DNA of 64,000 nucleotides, from positions 8,095,501-8,159,500 of the forward strand of contig NZ_CP108036.1 of NCBI RefSeq assembly GCF_036170895.1, in the 5' to 3' direction. The number at the start of each line of letters is the position of its first letter. The first letter of the stretch is position 1. Of the stretch, positions 13,695 through 24,247 are shown piece after piece. This DNA comes from Streptomyces erythrochromogenes. GTDB lineage: Bacteria > Actinomycetota > Actinomycetes > Streptomycetales > Streptomycetaceae. Under the pieces are notes generated by a model. The model searched no databases. It worked only from the letters and a program-made list of their open reading frames with translations, and was not told the origin of the DNA. The position numbers were made by a program, and so were the translations under genes.

Positions 13695-15073
13695 ACTCCC
13701 GCGTCCTGCGCACCGAACTGCGGCGTTCCGTCGCCCCCTGGGCCGCTCTCGTGCTCCTCGCGGCACCGCTGGCGCTCCTCTACCTGATCCCCGGACTGTG
13801 GTGGACCGGCACCGCGCGCTGGACGGCCCAGTGGACCTCCATGGCCCTGTGGACCCGTTCCCTGCTGATCCTGCTGTGGCCGGTCGCCGTGGGGCTGGGG
13901 GCGCTCCAGGGACTGCGCGACCACCGCTCCGGGACGGGCGAACTGCTGGCGAGCACGCCGAGGCCCGCCCGCCACCGCGCCGCCGCGCTCGCCGGGGCCA
14001 CGGCCTTGACGCTCACCTGCGCCTTCGCGCTCGTCGTCCTCGTCGGAGCCGTCCAGGTGCTCGCCGGCACCGGTTACCCGCACTTCGGCTGGCTGCCGAT
14101 CTCGCTGGTGGGAGCGCTCTCCCTGGCGGCGGGGGCTGTCCTGGGCATGGGGATCGGGCGGGCCCTGCCCTCGGTGCTGACCCCGCCCGTACTGGCCGTG
14201 GGCGCACTGGTGTTCACCAACGTCCTACGCGTCTCGGACGAGACGGCGGTGCCGCAGGCCGCCGTCCCCAACCGCCTCTCGCTGCTCTCACCGGCGGTGG
14301 CACAGGTACGCGAGGTGCTGTTCACCCTGTCCGCCTCCGTGCACGTGGGACAGACGCTCTGGCTCCTGGGCGTGGCCGCGACCGGCTTCGCGCTGCTGGC
14401 CGCGGCGACGCCGCGCGCCCGGCTGCTGGCCCTGGCACCCGTACTGGCGGGCGCGGTGCTCGCCCTGCTCGTCCTGCCCTCCGACCCGCGCCGGACGTAC
14501 GTCGTCGACGAGGCGGCCGCCCGCCAGGTGTGCGACGGCCCGGTGTGCGTGACGAAGACGCACCGGGCGCGGCTCGCCGACCTCACGGGCCCCGGCCGGA
14601 AGGCCCTGCGCCTGCTGCACCAGGCGCTGGGTGACGGGGCGCCGGTCGTCATCCAGGAGGGCACCACCCCGCGGGAACTCGGCGCCGTCCCGGAACGCTA
14701 CGACGGCGTCCTCGTGGTCGACTTCGACGACGGGACGATCGCCGGAGCGCGCGGCGACGCCCTGGTCAGGGCCCTGGTCGCCCAGGGCATGGCCCCGGTC
14801 TGCCGCCCCCGCAGCGACCGCGAGGGCGGTCCGGCCGTGGAGACCGCCGCGCAGAGCATCGCGGCGGGCTGGGTCCTCGGCGACCTCCTGCCCCTCGACG
14901 GCAACGGCCACTCCCGGGCCGAACAGCTCACCCTCGCCGAACCGGTGTGGCGGGAGCTCAAAGCACTGCCGCGGGAAGAACAGCTCGCACGGATCAACGC
15001 CATGCGCGCCGCCGCGGTCGGCTGCGAGGGCGACCCGCTCGGCGCACTCGCCGGAGAGGGTGAGTCGCCGTGA
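13691..15073 (+). CDS. ABC-2-type membrane protein
   Basis: A 460-residue integral membrane protein starting at a GTG that overlaps the stop of the ATPase gene (GTGA). About six hydrophobic helices fill residues 13-265. The C-terminal 190 residues are hydrophilic and contain a Cys pair (RQVCDGPVCVTKTH) plus two more cysteines, suggesting an extracytoplasmic domain. No close family is recognised from sequence alone. By position it is the membrane partner of the adjacent ABC ATPase. The next membrane gene overlaps its stop by 4 bases. Confidence 0.8.
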   Translation: MNSRVLRTELRRSVAPWAALVLLAAPLALLYLIPGLWWTGTARWTAQWTSMALWTRSLLILLWPVAVGLGALQGLRDHRSGTGELLASTPRPARHRAAALAGATALTLTCAFALVVLVGAVQVLAGTGYPHFGWLPISLVGALSLAAGAVLGMGIGRALPSVLTPPVLAVGALVFTNVLRVSDETAVPQAAVPNRLSLLSPAVAQVREVLFTLSASVHVGQTLWLLGVAATGFALLAAATPRARLLALAPVLAGAVLALLVLPSDPRRTYVVDEAAARQVCDGPVCVTKTHRARLADLTGPGRKALRLLHQALGDGAPVVIQEGTTPRELGAVPERYDGVLVVDFDDGTIAGARGDALVRALVAQGMAPVCRPRSDREGGPAVETAAQSIAAGWVLGDLLPLDGNGHSRAEQLTLAEPVWRELKALPREEQLARINAMRAAAVGCEGDPLGALAGEGESP

Positions 15074-15792
15074 GATGGCTGGTGCTGTACGCGCGTTCGC
15101 GGCAGGTGCCCGCGGCGCTCGCCGCAGCGGTGACCGGAGCGCTGGCGGTGTGGGCCCTGGCCCGGGACGGCGCCGCCGCCCCCGGCGATCCGCGGCCGGC
15201 CGCCCTCTTCCTCGCCATCGTGGCCGCCGCCGCTTCGACCGGACTCGGCGGACAGGACCTCGCGCTGGACCGGACGGCCGCGATCCGCTGGTGGACCCGC
15301 AGGACGGCGCACGTGCTGCTCGCGGGCACGGCCGCCTGCGCGATGGTCCTCGGGCTCCGGGCCGTGGGCGAGGACCTGGCGGCCACCGCGTTCGTCGTCC
15401 GGGACGCCGCCGGGCTGATGGGACTCGCCGCCCTCGGGGCGGCGGTGTGCGGTGCTGCGTACGCCTGGACCCTGCCCGTCGGGTGGCTGGCCCTCTCGTC
15501 GTTCTCCCCGCCCCTCACCGGCGTGCCGATGGAGGTCGTGACCTGGATGCTGCAACCGCCCGGTACGGCAGCGAGCACCTGGACCGCGCTGACGATCACG
15601 GCTGCCGGTACCGCCGCCTACGCGGTGACCGGGCCGAGACGGCGACCGCGCCGCGGCCGCCCCGGGCGTTGTCAGCGGCTCCCAGTAGGTTGGTGGGGCC
15701 CGCTCGGTGAGGTGCGGGCGCCGATGCACCACGGGGGTACGACGCCATGGATCCGACCACTGCATGGAGGGCTGCCGGGGACCACGAGCTGA
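15070..15792 (+). CDS. Membrane protein of the ECF/ABC operon
   Basis: A 240-residue protein with about five hydrophobic segments in residues 1-195 and a basic C-terminal tail. GTG start, coupled by GTGA overlap to the previous gene. It is the last of five genes in a tight operon: sigma factor, anti-sigma, ABC ATPase and two membrane proteins. No family assigned; a second ABC permease subunit is the simplest reading. Its last 46 bases overlap the next gene, and the promoter of that gene lies within its coding region. Confidence 0.75.
   Translation: MRWLVLYARSRQVPAALAAAVTGALAVWALARDGAAAPGDPRPAALFLAIVAAAASTGLGGQDLALDRTAAIRWWTRRTAHVLLAGTAACAMVLGLRAVGEDLAATAFVVRDAAGLMGLAALGAAVCGAAYAWTLPVGWLALSSFSPPLTGVPMEVVTWMLQPPGTAASTWTALTITAAGTAAYAVTGPRRRPRRGRPGRCQRLPVGWWGPLGEVRAPMHHGGTTPWIRPLHGGLPGTTS
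15670..15691 (+). promoter_or_regulatory. RecA-NDp / PafBC-type DNA-damage promoter (one mismatch)
   Basis: TGTCAGCG (15670-15677), 8 bases, then TAGGTT (15686-15691). The published actinobacterial RecA-independent damage promoter is TGTCRGTG-N8-TANNNT; here one base of the first box differs. It lies 55 bases upstream of the DUF4132-like gene. The 14-mer CCGGGCGTTGTCAG covering its 5' half (15662-15675) recurs upstream of the other DUF4132 gene. Confidence 0.6.
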
Positions 15793-18700
15793 CGCTCGAT
15801 GTCCGGAGCGGGCCGAAGCCCGTGCTCCGCTGCCGCACGGCGGCGGGGCGCGAGCTGAAGAAGGTACCGCCCGCCCTCAAGGCCGAGCCGCTGGTGCAGG
15901 AACTGACGGCGCTGGCCGCATGGATCGGCGACCACGCCGACCTGACGCTGGCGAGCGTCGAGCGATGGATGACCCAATCCCTGCCGGTGTCCGCGGCGTT
16001 GATACGTCAGGTGTGGCCCGACCCGTACTGGCAGCGGGCCCTGCGCCACGCGGTGATCGCGCCGTACGGCGGGGCGGAGGGCCCGGACGTACGGCGTGCC
16101 GGGGTGCTCACGGGCATCGCGGCGGGCCCGGCCGGTCCGCTGCTGGTGACGGGACTCGACGGGGAACGCGAGCTGCACGACACCCTCGTCGTGATCCCGC
16201 ACCCGGTGCTCCTCGACCCGCGCGGCACCGGCCTGCTCGGACGCTGGCACGGGCTCCTGGACGCCCTGGGCGGTGAGCAGGGCATCGAGCAACTGCACCG
16301 CGCGGTGTACGTACGCCCGGACTGCTCCCCGGCGCCGGCAACGGACACGGGAGGAACGCGGAACACCCGCGACGGCATCACCGTCTTCCACGGCGCCGCG
16401 TACGCGTCCGGCGCCCGGTTCGAGCGGCTGGTCGCGCGGTTCGGCGGACGCATCGGCGGGGAGCGCGCCGGCTTCACGTTCCCGCACCGGGGGAGCGCCT
16501 ACGGCATGGTGGCCGATCTGCGCCACCAGGGCCCGGCGGCGCCGGTGAGCCTGCACGACTTCCGGTTCACCGATGCCCGGGGGCGGCAGGGGCCGGGGAC
16601 GTACGACGCGGTGCCCCGGCCCGTCTGGTCCGAGGGGATCAGAGCGATCGCCACCCTCTTCGACGAGCGGGACCCCGGCGAGGGGCGCCCGGCCGCCGCC
16701 CTGCCGGCCGACTCGTCCGCCGGCTACCAGTCCTTCCTCGTCGAGTGCGCCGCGTACGCCGCGGCCGGGGCATCGCAGGCCGATGCCCCGAAACCGCGCC
16801 CCTCCGCCGACGCACGCCAACTCCTCGACGCGGGCGCGGTGCTGGCCGGCGAACCCGCCGGCCCGGGCGAGGAGCCGCTGACCGCGCGCCGCTACGGATC
16901 GCCGCTCCTGGAGGAGGGCGGTTGGTTCGTACGGCTCGTCGTGGCGCGGGCGGTCGGGGCGCACGACGCGGTGGCGCGGACGCTGGGCCTGGAGCCGGAT
17001 GCCGGCGGGGCCACGCCTGTGGGCAGGGCGTCGGTACGGCCCCTGGACTTCCTGTCCCGGGTCTGCCGGGTGCACCCCGGGCTGGCACGACAGGCGATGG
17101 CGCTGCTCGCGCCGCTGCGCACCTGCGCGACGACGGCCGAGACGAAGCCGGGCCGGGCGGCGGCCCAACTCCGCGCGAGCCTGAAGAAGCTGACCGCTGA
17201 TCACCCCGCGCTCCTGCCGCACGCCCTGGACGAGGGCGCGCGGATCGTGGTCGCGGCGGGCAGCGTCGCGATGGCACGACCGCTCTACGCGGAGGCACGG
17301 GCCGCCGAGAAGCAGTTGGGCGGGATCGACGAGTCCGCGCTGCGGGAAACCGTCTCGGAGTTCGGCGTGCTCGGCGTCGTCGACGGGAAGCTGCTCGGGC
17401 AGCACCGGGACGACATCGCCGCGCGCACGTCGGCGAGCGAGGCGTACGAGGAGCACCGCAGGCTCGTGCTGGACTGGTGCCGCAAGGAGAGCGGCATTCC
17501 CACGTCCTTCGTCCGGGACGGGGTGACCCGCTCCCGGCCGCGCGGCATCCCCGCGTCGTTCGCGGTCGAGCTGGCCGAGGGAGCGGGCAGCGGTCCCCTG
17601 GCCGCCGACGACACCAACACGGAGATCTTCCACCTGCTGCTGCGGGGCGGAGGACTGGAGAAGGCCGCGGCATCCGTGTGGGAGGCATGGGCGGCGCCGC
17701 TGGAGCGGGACCTGGCGGAGCACCCCGACACGGCCGGACACCTGCGGACCCACCTGCCGGAGCCCCGTGGCTCCTCGGCCGCGGCGAAGACCGCGGCCGC
17801 CGGGGCATGGCTGGCGCTGCTGGCACGCACGGGCCTGCTGGAGCCGTTCACGGGCGGGACGCCAGCGGCCTCCGCCGAGTCGGCGAAGGCCGCGAACGCC
17901 TGGCTGACGCTGTTCCTCCGGCGGTACGCCGGACTACGACTGCCCGTCGCCGGCCTGGAGCCGGTGGTGGCCTCGATCGCGGCCCGGATGCGCGAGGCGG
18001 GCGAGAGGCGTGAGCCCCTGCTCGGGCTGCAGAGCGAAACGCTGGGAGGCGACTTCCGGTCCGTCGGTGTGGACCTCGGGCTGCTCGCCCTCATGAAGCG
18101 GGTCGGCATGCCGTTGGACGAGCCGGCCGAAGGCGGGCGCGTCTGGGCGCTCCAGTGGATTCAGCGGCGGGGGACCGACGGTGTCGAACCGGTACTGGCC
18201 GACCCGGCCTTCCGGGAGCCGATCCGCGGTGAACTGACCGCCCCCGTACGGGGAAGCCTCGGGTACACCGTCACCCGGCACCACCTCACGCCGTTCCCGA
18301 AGGTCACGAAGAAGGTGGCCGCGCTGGAACCGCTGCGGGAGTTGATGGCCGGGATCCTCGACGAGCGTGCGCTGCGCCTGCGGACCGGCGGCGAGGACCG
18401 GCTGTTCGCCCTCCAGGACCTGCTGCTCCATGTGGAACCGTTCGTCGTCGCCGGGGCGGCGAGTCACTTCGACGCCCACGTCCGGCTGGCGCTGGCCGTC
18501 GAACCGGCCGCCCTGCTGGCGGACACCCTGCGCGCCGGCTGCCTCGCCCACGGGCACGACGGCGACCGGACGGCCCCGTGCGGGGTGCGGGAGGCCACCG
18601 CCGACCACGCGCGGGAACTGCTGGAGTCGGCGGACGCCGCCGTACGCCACCGGCATGCGCAGATGTTCGCCGTCGAGCCCGCCACCCGCCGGAGCCGGTA

Positions 18701-18869
18701 CCTCGATTTCCGCGAGGGGACCCCGTTCGCGCAGGACCTGCTGCCCGTCATCGAGAAGACCCTGCCGCACATCGCGGACGACTCCTGCCGGTCGCGGGCC
18801 CTGGGGCTCCTACAGGGCGTGCTGTGGTGCGAGACGTGGCAGGCGACGCTCCGCCGGTTCGTCCGGTGA
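15747..18869 (+). CDS. Large DUF4132-like protein, 1040 residues
   Basis: A cytosolic protein with no membrane segment. The N-terminal region (RELKKVPPALKAEPLVQELT, then SVERWMTQSLPVS) aligns in pattern with the core of the DUF4132 protein encoded at 22 kb (GKPVKSPPAAVRRDHADALR, then QVERLDRQFLARRTWS). It is followed by RGSAYGMVADLRHQ and APVSLHDFRFTDARG, similar to the DUF4132 C-terminal region. The remaining 650 residues look like helical repeats with no recognised catalytic motif. Relatives such as E. coli YehI have no settled biochemical function. The ATG overlaps the preceding gene by 46 bases, and a DNA-damage-type promoter lies upstream. Confidence 0.7.
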   Translation: MDPTTAWRAAGDHELTLDVRSGPKPVLRCRTAAGRELKKVPPALKAEPLVQELTALAAWIGDHADLTLASVERWMTQSLPVSAALIRQVWPDPYWQRALRHAVIAPYGGAEGPDVRRAGVLTGIAAGPAGPLLVTGLDGERELHDTLVVIPHPVLLDPRGTGLLGRWHGLLDALGGEQGIEQLHRAVYVRPDCSPAPATDTGGTRNTRDGITVFHGAAYASGARFERLVARFGGRIGGERAGFTFPHRGSAYGMVADLRHQGPAAPVSLHDFRFTDARGRQGPGTYDAVPRPVWSEGIRAIATLFDERDPGEGRPAAALPADSSAGYQSFLVECAAYAAAGASQADAPKPRPSADARQLLDAGAVLAGEPAGPGEEPLTARRYGSPLLEEGGWFVRLVVARAVGAHDAVARTLGLEPDAGGATPVGRASVRPLDFLSRVCRVHPGLARQAMALLAPLRTCATTAETKPGRAAAQLRASLKKLTADHPALLPHALDEGARIVVAAGSVAMARPLYAEARAAEKQLGGIDESALRETVSEFGVLGVVDGKLLGQHRDDIAARTSASEAYEEHRRLVLDWCRKESGIPTSFVRDGVTRSRPRGIPASFAVELAEGAGSGPLAADDTNTEIFHLLLRGGGLEKAAASVWEAWAAPLERDLAEHPDTAGHLRTHLPEPRGSSAAAKTAAAGAWLALLARTGLLEPFTGGTPAASAESAKAANAWLTLFLRRYAGLRLPVAGLEPVVASIAARMREAGERREPLLGLQSETLGGDFRSVGVDLGLLALMKRVGMPLDEPAEGGRVWALQWIQRRGTDGVEPVLADPAFREPIRGELTAPVRGSLGYTVTRHHLTPFPKVTKKVAALEPLRELMAGILDERALRLRTGGEDRLFALQDLLLHVEPFVVAGAASHFDAHVRLALAVEPAALLADTLRAGCLAHGHDGDRTAPCGVREATADHARELLESADAAVRHRHAQMFAVEPATRRSRYLDFREGTPFAQDLLPVIEKTLPHIADDSCRSRALGLLQGVLWCETWQATLRRFVR

Positions 18870-18918
18870 ACGGGGCTGCCGTCCGCCGCGGGACGCGTGT
18901 CTGGAAGGATCCGGTGGC

Positions 18919-19614
18919 ATGATCGCGAAACCTTCCGACGACCTGGCCGCCGCCTTCGCACGCCTGGGCGGCGAAGACGACGGACAGGTGTGGAGCGACC
19001 TGTGGGACGACCTGTGCCACCTGAACTGCGTCGACGACGACAGCTTCCTCGCCCTCCCGTACCTGGCCGCCGTCTCGGCCGGCCGCGCCCCCGGGGCCCC
19101 GCACGAGGCCGTCTCGATGGCGGGCCTGATCGTCTCGGCGGCGGACGAGGCACAGGCCGCGCGCTACGCGGAGGAGATCGCCGTCTTCCTTCGGACGGCC
19201 GGCCGCCTGCTCGGCGAGGCGGGCGACGACGCCGCGGCCTTCGTCTACCTCCTGCAAGGCATCCTGGCCTTCGAGGGCGAGCGGGTGTGGAGCCCGGGCC
19301 GTCTGGAAGGCCTGTTCACGAAGGAGTACGAAGTCGACTGCCCGGCGTGCTCGTCGACGCTGTTCGTCGCCTTCGGCGAGTACGGAACCTTCGCCTCGGC
19401 AGGTGACTACGTGACGTCCGATCCGGTCAGGGCGGCACTGCTGCCCGCGGACCCGGCCGCCCTCGACTCGCTGCCGGCCCGCCTGCACCGCATGGCGACG
19501 GAGGCGGGTCAGGCGAAGGTCGCGCACGGTCTGACGTACCTCTTCGGCCGGGCGACCTGCCCGGACTGCGAGGAAGTCTTCGCCGTGTCGGACCAGGTCC
19601 TGGAGACGTACTAG
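18919..19614 (+). CDS. Zinc-ribbon-like protein of unknown function
   Basis: A 231-residue soluble acidic protein. Two Cys-x2-Cys knuckles are visible, CPACSSTLF near residue 142 and CPDCEEVF near residue 214. They could together bind one zinc ion. The N-terminal half looks like a helical repeat (EEIAVFLRTAGRLLGEAGDD). No family recognised. It lies 49 bases after the large DUF4132-like gene on the same strand, with an AAGGA ribosome site, and is likely co-transcribed with it. Confidence 0.75.
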   Translation: MIAKPSDDLAAAFARLGGEDDGQVWSDLWDDLCHLNCVDDDSFLALPYLAAVSAGRAPGAPHEAVSMAGLIVSAADEAQAARYAEEIAVFLRTAGRLLGEAGDDAAAFVYLLQGILAFEGERVWSPGRLEGLFTKEYEVDCPACSSTLFVAFGEYGTFASAGDYVTSDPVRAALLPADPAALDSLPARLHRMATEAGQAKVAHGLTYLFGRATCPDCEEVFAVSDQVLETY

Positions 19615-19644
19615 AAGGTGCGCGAACCGAACGGAGAGGTGTCC

Positions 19645-20856
19645 ATGCAGAGACGTCACGCGGTGGTGGCCGGGGCCGGGATCGGCGGCCTCACCGCCGC
19701 CGTCGCACTGCACCGCCGCGGCTGGCGGGTCACCGTCTGCGAACGCGCCCCCGAGCCCCCCACCACCGGTGCCGGCATCGGACTCGCCCCCAACGCCCTG
19801 CGCGCCCTCGACAGCATCGGCGTCGACGCGGCCCGGGCCGCCGGCAGCGCCGTACCCGCCACGATGGGCGTACGCCGCTCCGACGGCCGGTGGCTCACCC
19901 GCGCCGAGACCTCGTACATGGCGGCCCGCTACGGCATGCCGCCGATCGCCGTACCGCGCCCGGCCTTCACCGCGGCCCTGGCCGCCGCCCTGCCGCCGGA
20001 AGCCCTCCGCTACGGCACCACCGTGACCGGCGTGGTCGACGCCGCCGGCCGCCCGACCGTGCGTACGGCCGAGGGCCCGGACCTTCCCGCCGATCTGGTC
20101 GTCGCCGCCGACGGGATCCACAGCCCCCTGCGCCGCGCCTGCTTCCCCGAACACCCCGGCCTGCACTACATCGGCGAGACGGCCTGGCGGACCCTCGTCG
20201 ACGCCCCGGACCTGCGGATACCGTCCATGAGCGAGACGTGGGGGCGGGGGGAGCGCTTCGGCGTGACACCGCTCGCCGACGGCCGGTACTACCTCTACGC
20301 CACCGCGGTCGTCCCGGCCGGCACCCGGCCGGCCGACCCCCGCGCGGAACTGAGCCGCCGCTTCGGCTCGTGGCACGACCCGATCCCGGCCCTGCTGGAC
20401 CGCGTCGGGGGCTTCGACCCCGCCGACGTCCTCCAGAACGACCTGTACGACCTGGCCGCCCCGCTGCCCCGCCTGCACCACGGCCGGATCGCCTGGCTCG
20501 GCGACGCCGCCCACGCCATGGCCCCCAACCTCGGCCAGGGCGGCTGCCAGGCCATCGAGGACGCGGTGGTCCTCGCGCACCTGCTCCCGGCCGGAGACAC
20601 CGGCGACAGCGCCGACTCCGGCGACACCGTACCGGCCGCCCTCGCCGCGTACACCGCGGCCCGCCGCGACCGTACCGACGCCGTTCGCCTCCGTGCCCGC
20701 CGCGTCGGCCGCCTGGGCGCCCTGCGCAACCCGTTCGCGGCGACGGCCCGGGACCTGGCGGTCCGCGCGATTCCGACGCGCCTGGCCCTGCGGGGCATGG
20801 ACGACCTCTTCAACGGCTTCCGCCTCCCCGGTGCGACGCGGGTCACGCCAGGGTGA
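19645..20856 (+). CDS. FAD-dependent monooxygenase (salicylate-hydroxylase type)
   Basis: A 403-residue class A flavoprotein monooxygenase. The N-terminal dinucleotide fold is VVAGAGIGGLTAAVALHRRG, the mid-protein motif VVAADGIHSPLRR holds the conserved Asp-Gly, and the second FAD motif is IAWLGDAAHAMAPNLGQGG. The enzyme uses NAD(P)H and O2 to hydroxylate an aromatic or related substrate, which is unknown. The start at 19645 has GGAGAGG 6 bases upstream; an in-frame GTG at 19618 is less likely. The end overlaps the convergent barstar-domain gene by 14 bases. Confidence 0.92.
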   Translation: MQRRHAVVAGAGIGGLTAAVALHRRGWRVTVCERAPEPPTTGAGIGLAPNALRALDSIGVDAARAAGSAVPATMGVRRSDGRWLTRAETSYMAARYGMPPIAVPRPAFTAALAAALPPEALRYGTTVTGVVDAAGRPTVRTAEGPDLPADLVVAADGIHSPLRRACFPEHPGLHYIGETAWRTLVDAPDLRIPSMSETWGRGERFGVTPLADGRYYLYATAVVPAGTRPADPRAELSRRFGSWHDPIPALLDRVGGFDPADVLQNDLYDLAAPLPRLHHGRIAWLGDAAHAMAPNLGQGGCQAIEDAVVLAHLLPAGDTGDSADSGDTVPAALAAYTAARRDRTDAVRLRARRVGRLGALRNPFAATARDLAVRAIPTRLALRGMDDLFNGFRLPGATRVTPG

Positions 20857-22003
20857 CCCGCATCCTGCGCTCGGCCAGGACGTCGAGAACACAGGCGAAC
20901 AGGTCGTAGGGCCGGCCGTCCGGCGTCAGGGCATGGGACAGGTGCTCGCGCGCCACGGCGGAGTCCCGCCAGAGCAGCGTTTCCGGGCCGGAGCAGCCGA
21001 AGCCGCCGCCCAGACAGTCGGCAAGGGCATGCAGATTGGCGCCGAGGTAGCCGCCCGGACCGTTGACCGCCTCACCGAGCGCGAGGTAGAGCCCCGGCAC
21101 GTCCGTGACGTGCCGGCCGTCCAGCTCGTAGGCGTGGCCCGGAGGCCGGGCGATGTCCGCGTGCGGGCGGGGCCTTCGCAGGACGTGGTCCAACCAGGCC
21201 CACCGCTGCCGCGTATCGAGGCCGGCCCAGGTGCCGGTCGTCCGCGGCACCCCGGCGAGCCAGCGCTCCCACAGCGGCCGGGCCGACTCCGGAACGGGCT
21301 CGGAGAGCTTGCCCTCCAGCTCCAGGTCGATCAGATCCGCGCCGGGCGCGGACGGGCGCCAGCCGCTGACGGTGGCCCACAGCAGCAGTTCCGCGAACGG
21401 CTCGCCGCGGTCGTCCCGTACCTCCAGGGCCGCTTCACCCAGGTCCAGTGTCGACCGGGTGGCCGTCTCCAGGGCCCGCCGCAGCTCCTCACCCGGGGCG
21501 AGCCCGCGCAGGACGATCGGAGGATCCGGGCGCCTGGGCGGCAGGGCGCGGGCGAACCCGCGGCAGGAGCCCAGCCGGCGCCGCCCGTCGTGCAGGAGGA
21601 CAGGGCCGTGGTGGTCCTCGGGCGGTCCCGGACGGCCGTCGAGGCCGGTCAGGACGAGACCGTCCGCCCCGGGGTGCGGTCCGAGGCTCTCGGCATCCTC
21701 CAGCAGCCAGGCGTCGAACGCCCCGTCCTCGGGAACGAACCACACTTCACGGCCGATCCAGCCGCGCACCCCGGGCCCCTCGGGCTCCCCGGGCCCCTCG
21801 GGCTCCCCGGGCCCCTCGGGAGTCCAGCCGAACAGTTCGTACGTCTCGCGCCCGGTCTCCCCGAACAGCCCCTCCACCTCGGCGCAGGTGCCCCAGGCGT
21901 GGCCCCGTTCCGTGTCGGTGAGGGTGTACCGCGCTCGCCCGCGACGGGCCTCGTTCTCATGCACGACGGGAATCTTGCCCCGTCCCACCCCACCGCCGTG
22001 CAC
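20843..22003 (-). CDS. Protein with C-terminal barstar (ribonuclease-inhibitor) domain
   Basis: Up to 386 residues. The last 95 residues match the barstar fold: YELDGRHVTDVPGLYLALGE, then a Gly-rich turn before NLHALADCLGGGFG, then LLWRDSAVAREHL and FACVLDVLAERRMRV. Barstar proteins neutralise barnase-type RNases and serve as immunity proteins. The N-terminal 290 residues are unrecognised and include a tandem Gly-Pro-Gly-Glu-Pro-Glu repeat near residue 65. No barnase gene is seen in the window. The start is uncertain: GTG 22003 or GTG 21964. The 5' end abuts the damage-type promoter of the divergent DUF4132 gene. Confidence 0.8.
   Translation of the reverse strand: MHGGGVGRGKIPVVHENEARRGRARYTLTDTERGHAWGTCAEVEGLFGETGRETYELFGWTPEGPGEPEGPGEPEGPGVRGWIGREVWFVPEDGAFDAWLLEDAESLGPHPGADGLVLTGLDGRPGPPEDHHGPVLLHDGRRRLGSCRGFARALPPRRPDPPIVLRGLAPGEELRRALETATRSTLDLGEAALEVRDDRGEPFAELLLWATVSGWRPSAPGADLIDLELEGKLSEPVPESARPLWERWLAGVPRTTGTWAGLDTRQRWAWLDHVLRRPRPHADIARPPGHAYELDGRHVTDVPGLYLALGEAVNGPGGYLGANLHALADCLGGGFGCSGPETLLWRDSAVAREHLSHALTPDGRPYDLFACVLDVLAERRMRVTLA
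21768..21822. repeat. Tandem 18-base repeat inside the barstar-domain gene
   Basis: About three copies of an 18-base unit containing CGGGCCCCTCGGGCTCCC encode a Gly-Pro-Gly-Glu-Pro-Glu repeat. A low-complexity linker prone to length change. Confidence 0.8.
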
Positions 22004-22010
22004 CGGGCGT

Positions 22011-22032
22011 TGTCAGTGCCGGGGCCTACTCT
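22011..22032 (+). promoter_or_regulatory. RecA-NDp / PafBC-type DNA-damage promoter (exact match)
   Basis: TGTCAGTG (22011-22018), N8, TACTCT (22027-22032): an exact fit to the published TGTCRGTG-N8-TANNNT motif. The -10 box ends 7 bases before the ATG at 22040, so the transcript is probably leaderless. Confidence 0.8.
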
Positions 22033-22039
22033 CGGCCCC

Positions 22040-24247
22040 ATGCACAACGCGACGACGACCGATGGGGAAGCGGCGAACCGGACCGCTGACTTCCTGCACC
22101 TGGGAAGCACCTTCCACACGTACTACGAGGGCTGGTCCGCCCGCGTACAGGCCGAACTGGCCGCCGGCCGCAGCATCCCGCCGGCCGCGGTCGCCACCCT
22201 CAGGCGCAGCGCGCTCGTCTCGTACGCCGTCGCAGACCTGTCCGCGGCCCTCGGCCAACTGGACTGCCCCGCCCTCAACACGGGCGAGCCCTGGGCGGAC
22301 GAGGCGACGGCCGACGGACGATGGGAGCCGCTGCTCGCCCATGCCGTCACCGCCACCGCGGCCCGGCCCACCGCCAAGTGGGAGAAGACCGCCCGCGCCC
22401 TCCTGGCGGAGACGGCCGCCGACCCCGACGAGCTGCGCCGGTCGGTGCTCCGCTGGTTCGGCCTCGTCGGCCGCCCCCGTACGCTGGAACTCACGGACTC
22501 CTGGTACGAGAAGCAGCTCGACCCGCACAACGCCAACGCCCTGCGCGGACTGGCGTGGTTCCTGCCGCTCCTGCCCGCACACCCCGATACGCCGCGCGCG
22601 CTCGGCGTCCTCGTGGAGACGTGCCTGCGCAAGGTGCCGGGACACGGACCGCTCAACCCGAAGGTGGCCAACGCCGGGGTCACGGCCCTGGCCCGGGCGG
22701 AGGGCGAGGCGGCGCTCGCAGAGCTGGCACGGCTGGCCTCCCGCGTGACCTTCAAGGGCACCCTCAAGATCATCGAGGCGGCCCTGGAGGCACGTGCCCG
22801 AGACCTCGGCATGAGCCGTGAGGAGGTCGAGGAGCTGGCCGTCCCCGCCTTCGGCCTGAGCGGATCCGCAGCCGCGGTCGGCCACGGCACGTTCGCCTTC
22901 GGGGAGAGCACCGCCCTGGTGGAGATCCGCGGTTCCAAGGCGGTCCTGACGTGGCGCACTTCGGCCGGGAAGCCGGTCAAGTCCCCGCCCGCGGCGGTGC
23001 GGCGGGACCACGCCGACGCGCTCAGGGAGCTCAAGGCCACCGTCAAGGACATCGACAAGACGCTCTCCGCCCAGGTGGAGCGGCTCGACCGGCAGTTCCT
23101 CGCCCGCCGTACGTGGTCGTTCGGGCCGTGGCGGGAGCGCTTTGCGGACCATCCCCTCGTCGGCACCCTCGCCCGTCGCCTGATCTGGACCGTCGCCGGC
23201 ATCCCCGCCCTCTTCGACGGAGGGGACATGCGCGATCTCGCGGGCGACCCGGTCCGCGCCCGCCCCGACGCCGAGGTCGGGCTCTGGCACCCGGTCGGCA
23301 GGGACCGGGAAGAGATCGCCGCCTGGCGCGAGCGGCTCGAAGCGTGCGGCGTGACCCAGCCCTTCAAGCAGGCCCACCGCGAGGTGTACCCCCTCACCGA
23401 CGCGGAGCGCACCACCGCCACGTACTCCAACCGCTTCGCCGGCCATGTCCTGCGCCAGCACCAGTTCCATGCGCTGGCCGCCGTACGGGGCTGGCGCAAC
23501 AAGCTGCGCCTGAGCGTGGACGACAGCCTCCCGCCCGCCGTCCGGGAACTGCCGCAGTGGGGGCTGCGCGCCGAGTACTGGATCGAGGCCGACGACACCG
23601 GCGACCACTACGGCGACACCACCGGCTCCGGCAGCTACCTCCGCCTGCGCACCGACCAGGTGCGCTTCTATCCGATCGACGCCCCGCCGAACCACGCGCA
23701 CTGCACCGGCGGCGCCTACACGATGCTGCGGCGCAGGGGTCAGCACCACGTCGATCCGCTGCCGCTCGCCGGGATACCGGAGCTGGTGCTGAGCGAGGTG
23801 ATGCGCGACGTGGACCTGTTCGTGGGCGTGGCCAGCGTCGGCAACGACCCCACCTGGGCCGACGGCGGGCCGCAGGGCCGCTTCCGGGACTACTGGACCT
23901 CCTACGGCTTCGGCGAGCTGGGCGCGAGCGCCGAGACCAGGCGGGCGCTGCTGGAGCGGCTGGTGCCGAGGCTGGCCGTCGCGGACCGCTGCACGGTCGA
24001 GGGCCGGTTCCTGCACGTGCGGGGCGAGCTGCACACGTACAAGATCCACCTCGGCTCGGGGAACATCCTGATGTCGCCGAACGACCAGTACCTGTGCATC
24101 GTCCCGAAGGCGGAAGCCGCCCCGGACACGGGCTATCTCCCCTACGAGGGCGACCGGACCCTCGCGGTCATCCTGAGCAAGGCCCTGCTGCTGGCCGACG
24201 ACACGTCGATCACGGACCCGACCATCACCAGCCAGATACGCGGCTGA
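22040..24247 (+). CDS. DUF4132 domain-containing protein
   Basis: A 735-residue cytosolic protein. The DUF4132 domain spans roughly residue 315 to the end: KSPPAAVRRDHADALRELK, then WSFGPWRERFADHPLVGTLA, then ADAEVGLWHPVGRDREEIAA and TQPFKQAHREVYPLTDAER. The C-terminus reads YKIHLGSGNILMSPNDQYLC. The N-terminal 300 residues are helical (HEAT-like by eye). The family is tied by genome context in other bacteria to MoxR ATPase / vWA modules (E. coli yeh cluster), but no such partners lie here. The ATG follows a DNA-damage-type promoter at leaderless distance. Confidence 0.88.
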   Translation: MHNATTTDGEAANRTADFLHLGSTFHTYYEGWSARVQAELAAGRSIPPAAVATLRRSALVSYAVADLSAALGQLDCPALNTGEPWADEATADGRWEPLLAHAVTATAARPTAKWEKTARALLAETAADPDELRRSVLRWFGLVGRPRTLELTDSWYEKQLDPHNANALRGLAWFLPLLPAHPDTPRALGVLVETCLRKVPGHGPLNPKVANAGVTALARAEGEAALAELARLASRVTFKGTLKIIEAALEARARDLGMSREEVEELAVPAFGLSGSAAAVGHGTFAFGESTALVEIRGSKAVLTWRTSAGKPVKSPPAAVRRDHADALRELKATVKDIDKTLSAQVERLDRQFLARRTWSFGPWRERFADHPLVGTLARRLIWTVAGIPALFDGGDMRDLAGDPVRARPDAEVGLWHPVGRDREEIAAWRERLEACGVTQPFKQAHREVYPLTDAERTTATYSNRFAGHVLRQHQFHALAAVRGWRNKLRLSVDDSLPPAVRELPQWGLRAEYWIEADDTGDHYGDTTGSGSYLRLRTDQVRFYPIDAPPNHAHCTGGAYTMLRRRGQHHVDPLPLAGIPELVLSEVMRDVDLFVGVASVGNDPTWADGGPQGRFRDYWTSYGFGELGASAETRRALLERLVPRLAVADRCTVEGRFLHVRGELHTYKIHLGSGNILMSPNDQYLCIVPKAEAAPDTGYLPYEGDRTLAVILSKALLLADDTSITDPTITSQIRG

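Follow-up and report, generated by a model that had tools for sequence, protein, structure and literature searches.

The stretch of DNA analysed here, called the window throughout, comprises 64,000 nucleotides of Streptomyces erythrochromogenes (contig NZ_CP108036.1, positions 8,095,501 to 8,159,500 of the forward strand). Two of its genes, named here by their start positions 15747 and 22040, encode proteins with the domain DUF4132 and are preceded by sites of the RecA-NDp type, the promoters associated with PafBC and DNA damage. Gene 22040 probably encodes the large half of a two-protein system, the small half of which ends in Gly-Gly and is encoded elsewhere in the genome. The features concerned are listed below.

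22040..24247, plus strand: DUF4132-DUF7737 protein of 735 amino acids (aa), large partner of the Gly-Gly small protein (Pfam)
22967..23494, plus strand: DUF4132 domain of gene 22040, residues 310-485 (E 1e-54, 185.7 bits against a cut-off of 27)
23930..24238, plus strand: DUF7737 domain of gene 22040 (PF24879), residues 631-733 (E 1.2e-41)
22010..22032, plus strand: PafBC/RecA-NDp promoter TTGTCAGTG-N8-TACTCT, exact motif, 7 nucleotides (nt) before the ATG at 22040
15747..18869, plus strand: DUF4132 protein of 1040 aa without DUF7737 (Pfam scan)
15846..16313, plus strand: DUF4132 domain of gene 15747, residues 34-189 (PF13569, E 1.6e-11, 44.9 bits against a gathering cut-off of 27)
15669..15691, plus strand: candidate PafBC/RecA-NDp promoter TTGTCAGCG-N8-TAGGTT, one mismatch to TTGTCAGTG, 55 nt before the ATG at 15747
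G000:C1:3384153-3384542, minus strand: small-protein gene of this genome, outside the window

The motif TGTCRGTG-N8-TANNNT was searched in the 64-kb window with up to one mismatch. Just two matches were found, at 22011-22032 (plus strand, no mismatch) and at 15670-15691 (plus strand, one mismatch), where 0.25 would be expected by chance and two were reached in 2 of 100 shuffles. A first-pass annotation of this DNA, made from the letters, had claimed an exact site 7 bases before the ATG at 22040, a one-mismatch site before gene 15747, a 14-mer common to both promoters and DUF4132 membership of both genes. The scan returned these very sites, the second one 55 bases before its ATG; the common 14-mer is CCGGGCGTTGTCAG, and Pfam assigns both proteins to DUF4132 (E 1.6e-11 and E 1e-54), the match of 15747 being weak yet above the cut-off. 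The -10 box at gene 22040 ends at 22032, leaving 7 bases before the ATG, a gap that suggests a probably leaderless transcript.

In the whole genome (8.6 Mb), exact TTGTCAGTG-N8-TANNNT occurs at 11 sites and the reversed pattern at none, while TTGTCAGNG-N8-TANNNT occurs at 13 sites, including the one before 15747, against one for its reversal. The genome holds three DUF4132 genes, and each has one of these 13 sites upstream. Exact sites precede frames read as recA (L003), ruvC (L008) and ung (L009), at 7, 64 and 9 nt from the starts picked by script, as well as the third DUF4132 gene (L001), gene 22040 (L011) and the small-protein gene (L004). They also stand in front of genes for a WGR/beta-propeller protein (L007), a vWA-like protein (L002), a HEAT-like protein (L010) and proteins of 83 and 147 aa (L005, L006), the vWA and HEAT matches lying below the Pfam cut-offs in a scan of six of the 11 frames that follow the sites; these five genes are candidate new members of the Streptomyces damage regulon. 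Position and reading identify pafB and pafC as two 348-aa frames in tandem, next to an FKBP-like one. The second frame contains a PafC-type domain (PF19187, 99 bits), and six weaker PF19187 matches are found elsewhere in the genome.

The first-pass annotation had proposed looking for the motif before orthologous DUF4132 genes, and there it is present. The genus sample comprised 61 genomes (60 drawn plus our own), with DUF4132 in 30 of them and 43 domains in total; 40 DUF4132 genes outside our own genome were scanned, from 400 bases before the open frame up to the domain. The motif was exact in 25/40 and within one mismatch in 33/40, although the Streptomyces genomes are related and these counts are not independent events. 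Against this, 745,121 other positions of the same loci gave no match even with one mismatch, the reversed motif and the opposite strand gave none, and none of 300 letter-permuted motifs matched exactly or reached more than one gene with one mismatch allowed. When the genes were divided into author-defined classes (A, A', B, C and D) by length, score and DUF7737, the motif was exact in 8/8 of the DUF7737 type preceded by a small gene, in 3/4 of the long type without DUF7737 (4/4 within one mismatch) and in 13/21 of the short type of about 290 aa (19/21 within one mismatch). In the short class (loci L078-L098) 83-92 nt separate the motif from the first in-frame start in 11/21 relatives, and the distance is 89 nt for L001, the short-class gene of our own genome. 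This differs from the leaderless class, and the interval may contain an RNA element.

According to the excerpted text of PMC9380542, an initial search suggested that the Mycobacterium smegmatis PafBC motif is not conserved in Streptomyces venezuelae, and whether Streptomyces has a PafBC-type response was left unsettled. The finding of TTGTCAGNG-N8-TANNNT in 61/61 Streptomyces genomes (between 3 and 43 sites per genome, compared with 0 to 3 when the pattern is reversed) speaks against that remark, though S. venezuelae stands outside the genomes searched, and it makes the question directly testable. The genome-wide counts agree with the RecA-NDp promoters reported for Streptomyces in passages of PMC5087735 and PMC8223512.

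In the family of 22040, QPFKQAHRE and YSNRF are invariant in the DUF4132 domain, IHLGS, YLCIV and EGD are invariant in DUF7737, and RDxDLFVG is a further invariant stretch in the C-terminal half. DUF7737 occurs in those DUF4132 proteins that accompany a small protein. The predicted structure of 22040 (predicted local distance difference test, pLDDT, 79; predicted template modelling score, pTM, 0.63) shows a helical-repeat N-terminal part with mostly HEAT/ARM-like matches over residues 85-265. The C-terminal half is mixed, contains many invariant polar residues and to our judgement looks enzymatic in the model. A function drawn from the fold search was rejected, since the matches are mostly helical-repeat over residues 85-265 and barely cover the C-terminal half; a sequence search of the PDB with 22040 gave no relative at E <= 1. 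The divergent neighbour of gene 22040, at 20843-22003 on the minus strand of the window, encodes a protein with a barstar domain near its C-terminus.

The partner was recognised from relatives. At eight motif-bearing DUF7737-type relatives the site lies 6-7 nt before a frame of 109-131 aa. The DUF4132 frame overlaps this small frame or starts shortly after it, and all eight small proteins end in Gly-Gly. Their family (about 130 residues) numbers 1442 homologues at E <= 0.001 among 1512 candidates; the 120 rows listed carry no Pfam domain and are nearly all 'hypothetical' or nameless, and a Pfam scan of our own small protein gave no match either. A Gly-Gly C-terminus was found in 120/120 small proteins among the matches listed, in 34/34 of another set, in 12/12 across phyla and in every intact copy read; it is kept where the genes do not overlap, so that gene overlap as its sole cause was rejected. 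The small protein is predicted to adopt a beta-grasp fold of the MoaD/ubiquitin type, its best VIA-align match being the MoaD subunit MOCS2A, while a sequence search of the PDB gave hits at E 0.09 or worse, read as chance.

A genome scan with one small protein as bait yielded 38 loci: 32 in Streptomyces, three in Pseudomonas and one each in Nocardia alni and in metagenome-assembled genomes of Abditibacterium and Acidobacteria. DUF4132 together with DUF7737 is found at 37 of them. Among the 32 Streptomyces small-gene loci the motif is exact in 30 and has one mismatch in two, and it ends 6-8 nt before the ATG in 31/32; the Nocardia locus has it with two mismatches at 6 nt, and every candidate site at the five non-actinobacterial loci has four or more mismatches. 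Three actinobacteria from other classes (G295, G317, G156) also have the pair, and G229, a Streptomyces, has a divergent copy of it, the small proteins all ending in Gly-Gly. Overall the pair spans Actinobacteria, Pseudomonadota, Acidobacteria, Abditibacterium and Deinococcus. In Pseudomonas 13/199 genomes match, and 12 loci were examined, all except L188, where a 463-aa frame matches in part; all 12 small proteins end in Gly-Gly. Loci L180-L187 of Pseudomonas hold a second, distant small-protein subfamily, also Gly-Gly-ended, and at two of them that were examined a long frame follows the small gene and runs past the locus end. The order is reversed at L075 (G016:C3, minus strand), where the DUF4132-DUF7737 gene is directly followed by a small gene, still Gly-Gly-ended, and a PafBC motif is lacking even with one mismatch allowed. 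The operon has decayed or been cut short at L143 (G046), L145 (G007) and L146 (G040), where fragments of the small gene or remains of DUF7737 stand behind a motif, exact at L145 and L146 and with one mismatch at L143. L147 (G186) is a DUF7737-type copy without an adjoining small gene, and the full operon stands at L148 in the same genome. A 132-aa upstream frame in Acetobacter was rejected as a small partner for lack of a match.

In our own genome the two halves are apart. Gene 22040 has no small neighbour, and no partner encoded in the window was found in six frames; the partner gene lies 4.7 Mb away, at 3.384 Mb. Both genes have the exact motif 7 nt before the ATG, and the same promoter on both halves, while they are apart, argues for joint regulation. 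The small gene (L004) shares a downstream antisense frame with L069 and L070, and thus apparently sits where relatives keep the whole operon.

The pair can be followed into Deinococcus. A tblastn search of 22040 against plasmids gave four Deinococcus records, each with a 134-aa frame 2 nt upstream of its DUF4132 gene. These small frames score 44-53 bits with the small-protein model and end in LTALAGG; the upstream box is TTATGCTATTTACATAA at three of the small genes and TTCTGCTATTTACAGAA at one. The D. radiodurans small protein scores 52.5 bits, and a separate search of the record finds that one place (E 2.1e-14); in Deinococcus sp. D7000 the gene is annotated short (100 aa). The D. radiodurans genes were identified as DRA0165 (SEP068184) and DRA0166 because a thioredoxin gene precedes the small gene, a DUF4132 gene follows it and the box has the same sequence. 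Passages of PMC8533742 list the box 83 bases before DRA0165, describe the operon as DdrO-controlled and damage-induced, and report that DRA0166 rises with mitomycin C in wild type and not in delta-irrE. In the excerpted text of PMC9650054, DR_A0165 rises after gamma rays and peroxide, its protein binds thioredoxin Trx1, its deletion raises peroxide survival, N- and C-tagged versions have interactors in common, and an independent structure prediction was MoaD-like, finding MOCS2 and SAMP1. The same text states that DR_A0165 has no DdrO-type box and no conservation outside Deinococcus; both statements are contradicted, by the DdrO-type box upstream of DRA0165 (L172) and by the homologues outside Deinococcus. 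The passages on DRA0165-DRA0166 in these sources make no mention of the Gly-Gly end or of a pair conserved beyond Deinococcus. With a PafBC-type motif in Streptomyces and DdrO in Deinococcus, one pair stands under two unrelated damage regulators.

On this evidence it is rather likely that 22040, and less so 15747, belongs to the PafBC damage regulon, and that 22040 is the large half of a two-protein system with a Gly-Gly-ended beta-grasp partner. The first-pass annotation had expected a role in the damage response or in defence triggered by damage. The damage part is supported, with the motif kept before orthologues, pafBC present and the motif common to recA, ruvC and ung; the defence part found no backing, with no PADLOC match for five proteins and no match in phage records for one small protein. 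Several findings, besides the relatedness of the genomes counted, weigh against the assignment. At gene 15747 the motif has one mismatch, and the site at 15670 falls within the 3' end of an overlapping upstream frame (15070-15792). The relatives of 15747 fill at least 51 rows, itself included, the named ones being Streptomyces plus one Kitasatospora; the type occurs in 3/246 genomes including our own, and S. venezuelae encodes a relative. Of the two relatives in the genus sample, one has a one-mismatch site but is broken into two frames, and the other lacks a site even when two mismatches are allowed, so that membership of 15747 in the regulon, resting on the motif and one relative, has less support than that of 22040.

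Further points of the same kind concern 22040 and its partner. Two copies grouped with the DUF7737 type (class A', DUF7737 being seen in one while the other meets a contig end) have no motif within one mismatch (0/2), and in class D, the other DUF4132 genes, it is exact in 1/5, within one mismatch in 2/5 and lacking in 3/5. The pairs of G295, G317, G156 and G229 have no motif within one mismatch on the strand of the gene, and in a draw across the phylum DUF4132 was found in just 15/296 genomes. LexA control in Pseudomonas was rejected, with an exact LexA-type box at just one of the 12 small genes; damage control is therefore not shown everywhere. L114 is a small gene without an adjoining DUF4132, and one of the 120 listed small proteins carries the label 'DUF3800 domain-containing' in one source. 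Among the 61 Streptomyces genomes the small gene accompanies 11/11 with the high-scoring large type (DUF7737 seen in 10, G041 being placed there by score although DUF7737 was not seen) and 1/50 of the others, where it adjoins a truncated DUF7737 frame (G046), a comparison, put to a Fisher test, whose classes were set after seeing the data and which counts G007 and G040, with N-terminal small-gene fragments, as lacking the gene.

A mechanism can be outlined as follows. After damage, activated PafBC would let RNA polymerase use the TTGTCAGTG/TANNNT promoter, the motif itself being observed, and the product of 22040 would be made from a leaderless or short-leader message. The small half, which has its own copy of the promoter, is predicted to have a beta-grasp fold like that of ubiquitin and MoaD, and its free Gly-Gly end is invariant. 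The small protein may dock by this tail on the DUF4132-DUF7737 part, in the way that MoaD docks on MoaE. MoeB and MoeZ are shared activators of sulphur carriers; a housekeeping enzyme of this type may activate the tail, which would then either pass on sulphur or be joined to targets that the HEAT-like N-terminal part holds. DUF4132 proteins without DUF7737 would work without the small protein. The pair as a whole points to a protein-tagging or sulphur-carrying step in the DNA-damage response.

What the Gly-Gly tail does can be read in several ways. The small protein may be a dedicated sulphur carrier with a thiocarboxylate tail, as in MoaD/ThiS, whose sulphur is used by DUF4132-DUF7737, for instance in cofactor or nucleotide repair or synthesis during damage, with nothing being tagged. 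MOCS2A as the best VIA-align match, the published DR_A0165 prediction that found MOCS2 and SAMP1, the binding of DR_A0165 to thioredoxin Trx1 (PMC9650054, excerpts) and the want of a ligase or peptidase gene recognised by reading at eight loci favour it; however, no molybdenum- or sulphur-pathway gene is seen as a constant neighbour (modA lies near one Deinococcus locus), and moeA, moeB and others are not differentially expressed on DdrO depletion in the passages of PMC8533742. This is a possible reading, to be held tentatively. A ubiquitin-like damage tagging system, in which a shared E1-type enzyme activates the small protein, DUF4132-DUF7737 is a ligase of a new type, and separate phyla were wired independently to PafBC and DdrO, is rather doubtful. 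Rather improbable, too, is a tail without chemistry, with the small protein as a structural or regulatory subunit in a groove of the large one and the pair as a scaffold at damaged DNA or RNA: the HEAT-like N-terminal part predicted for 22040 is typical of scaffolds, no activating enzyme was recognised beside the operon by reading eight loci, and N- and C-tagged DR_A0165 share interactors (PMC9650054, excerpts), but two invariant terminal glycines across phyla and gene orders are hard to explain by packing alone.

The tie to damage itself has been weighed likewise. An anti-phage or suicide system triggered by damage is a distinctly unlikely role for these genes; it would fit their patchy distribution (DUF4132 in 30/61 genomes, small-protein matches in 14/61, two being fragments), the operon remnants in G007, G040 and G046 and the higher peroxide survival on deletion of DR_A0165 (PMC9650054, excerpts). 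PADLOC 2.0.0 returned no family for the five proteins, phage records held no match to the one small protein used as query, and the downstream antisense frame common to three Streptomyces loci (L004, L069 and L070) suggests a fixed chromosomal place there rather than an island. That the motifs are chance or another type of promoter, and the genes have no tie to DNA damage, is very improbable. The site at 15747, with its one mismatch, its place in an overlapping frame and its recurrence (again with one mismatch) in one of two relatives, could be read so, but chance was rejected by the 33/40 relatives against 0/745,121 control positions and none reversed, and the 6-8 nt spacing in 31/32 operons, the motif common to recA, ruvC and ung, and DdrO control in Deinococcus speak against it as well.

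With these findings DUF4132 is tied to damage regulators in two phyla, one of its subfamilies gains a ubiquitin/MoaD-like partner that is nearly constant, and DRA0165-DRA0166, a poorly understood pair of D. radiodurans, is seen to belong to a system present in several phyla. In a literature search made largely outside subscription journals and bioRxiv, none of the matches listed describes a DUF4132 protein paired with a ubiquitin-like one, and the passages found on DUF4132 give no tested function.

The promoter architecture is that of the mycobacterial RecA-NDp/PafBC regulon and of Streptomyces recA and the ultraviolet-inducible SCO6735 of S. coelicolor, for which passages of PMC5087735 report RecA-NDp promoters. 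The passages of the PafBC papers name neither DUF4132 genes nor the small protein. The small protein resembles the MoaD/ThiS carriers and the ubiquitin-like conjugation operons of Iyer et al. 2006 (PMC1779556, excerpts) in its predicted beta-grasp fold and conserved C-terminal glycine. Those operons carry E1-like, E2-like or JAB genes, whereas the sole constant partner recognised here is DUF4132-DUF7737; in the flanking frames of eight loci no E1-like, E2-like, JAB, ligase or peptidase gene was recognised, by reading alone and without family models. In Escherichia coli the likeness lies in yehF-yehH-yehI (the molR region), where yehI, a DUF4132 gene, is downstream of the WGR gene yehF and the pseudogene yehH, and CTGG-N8-ACAG, one base off the LexA half-sites, stands just before the yehF ATG; according to a passage of PMC8533742, MolR had been described as part of the LexA regulon. 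The difference is that YehI lacks DUF7737; the small Gly-Gly protein was not found in 21 kb around yehI, and YehK was rejected as a small partner, having no match and no Gly-Gly. The Deinococcus pair is alike in its homologous Gly-Gly small protein and its DUF4132-DUF7737 partner 2 nt downstream, and differs in the additional DUF5724 of DRA0166 and in its regulator, DdrO/IrrE and not PafBC. In conclusion, with E. coli LexA as the least tested of the three cases, PafBC, DdrO and LexA tie DUF4132 genes to three unrelated types of damage regulator.

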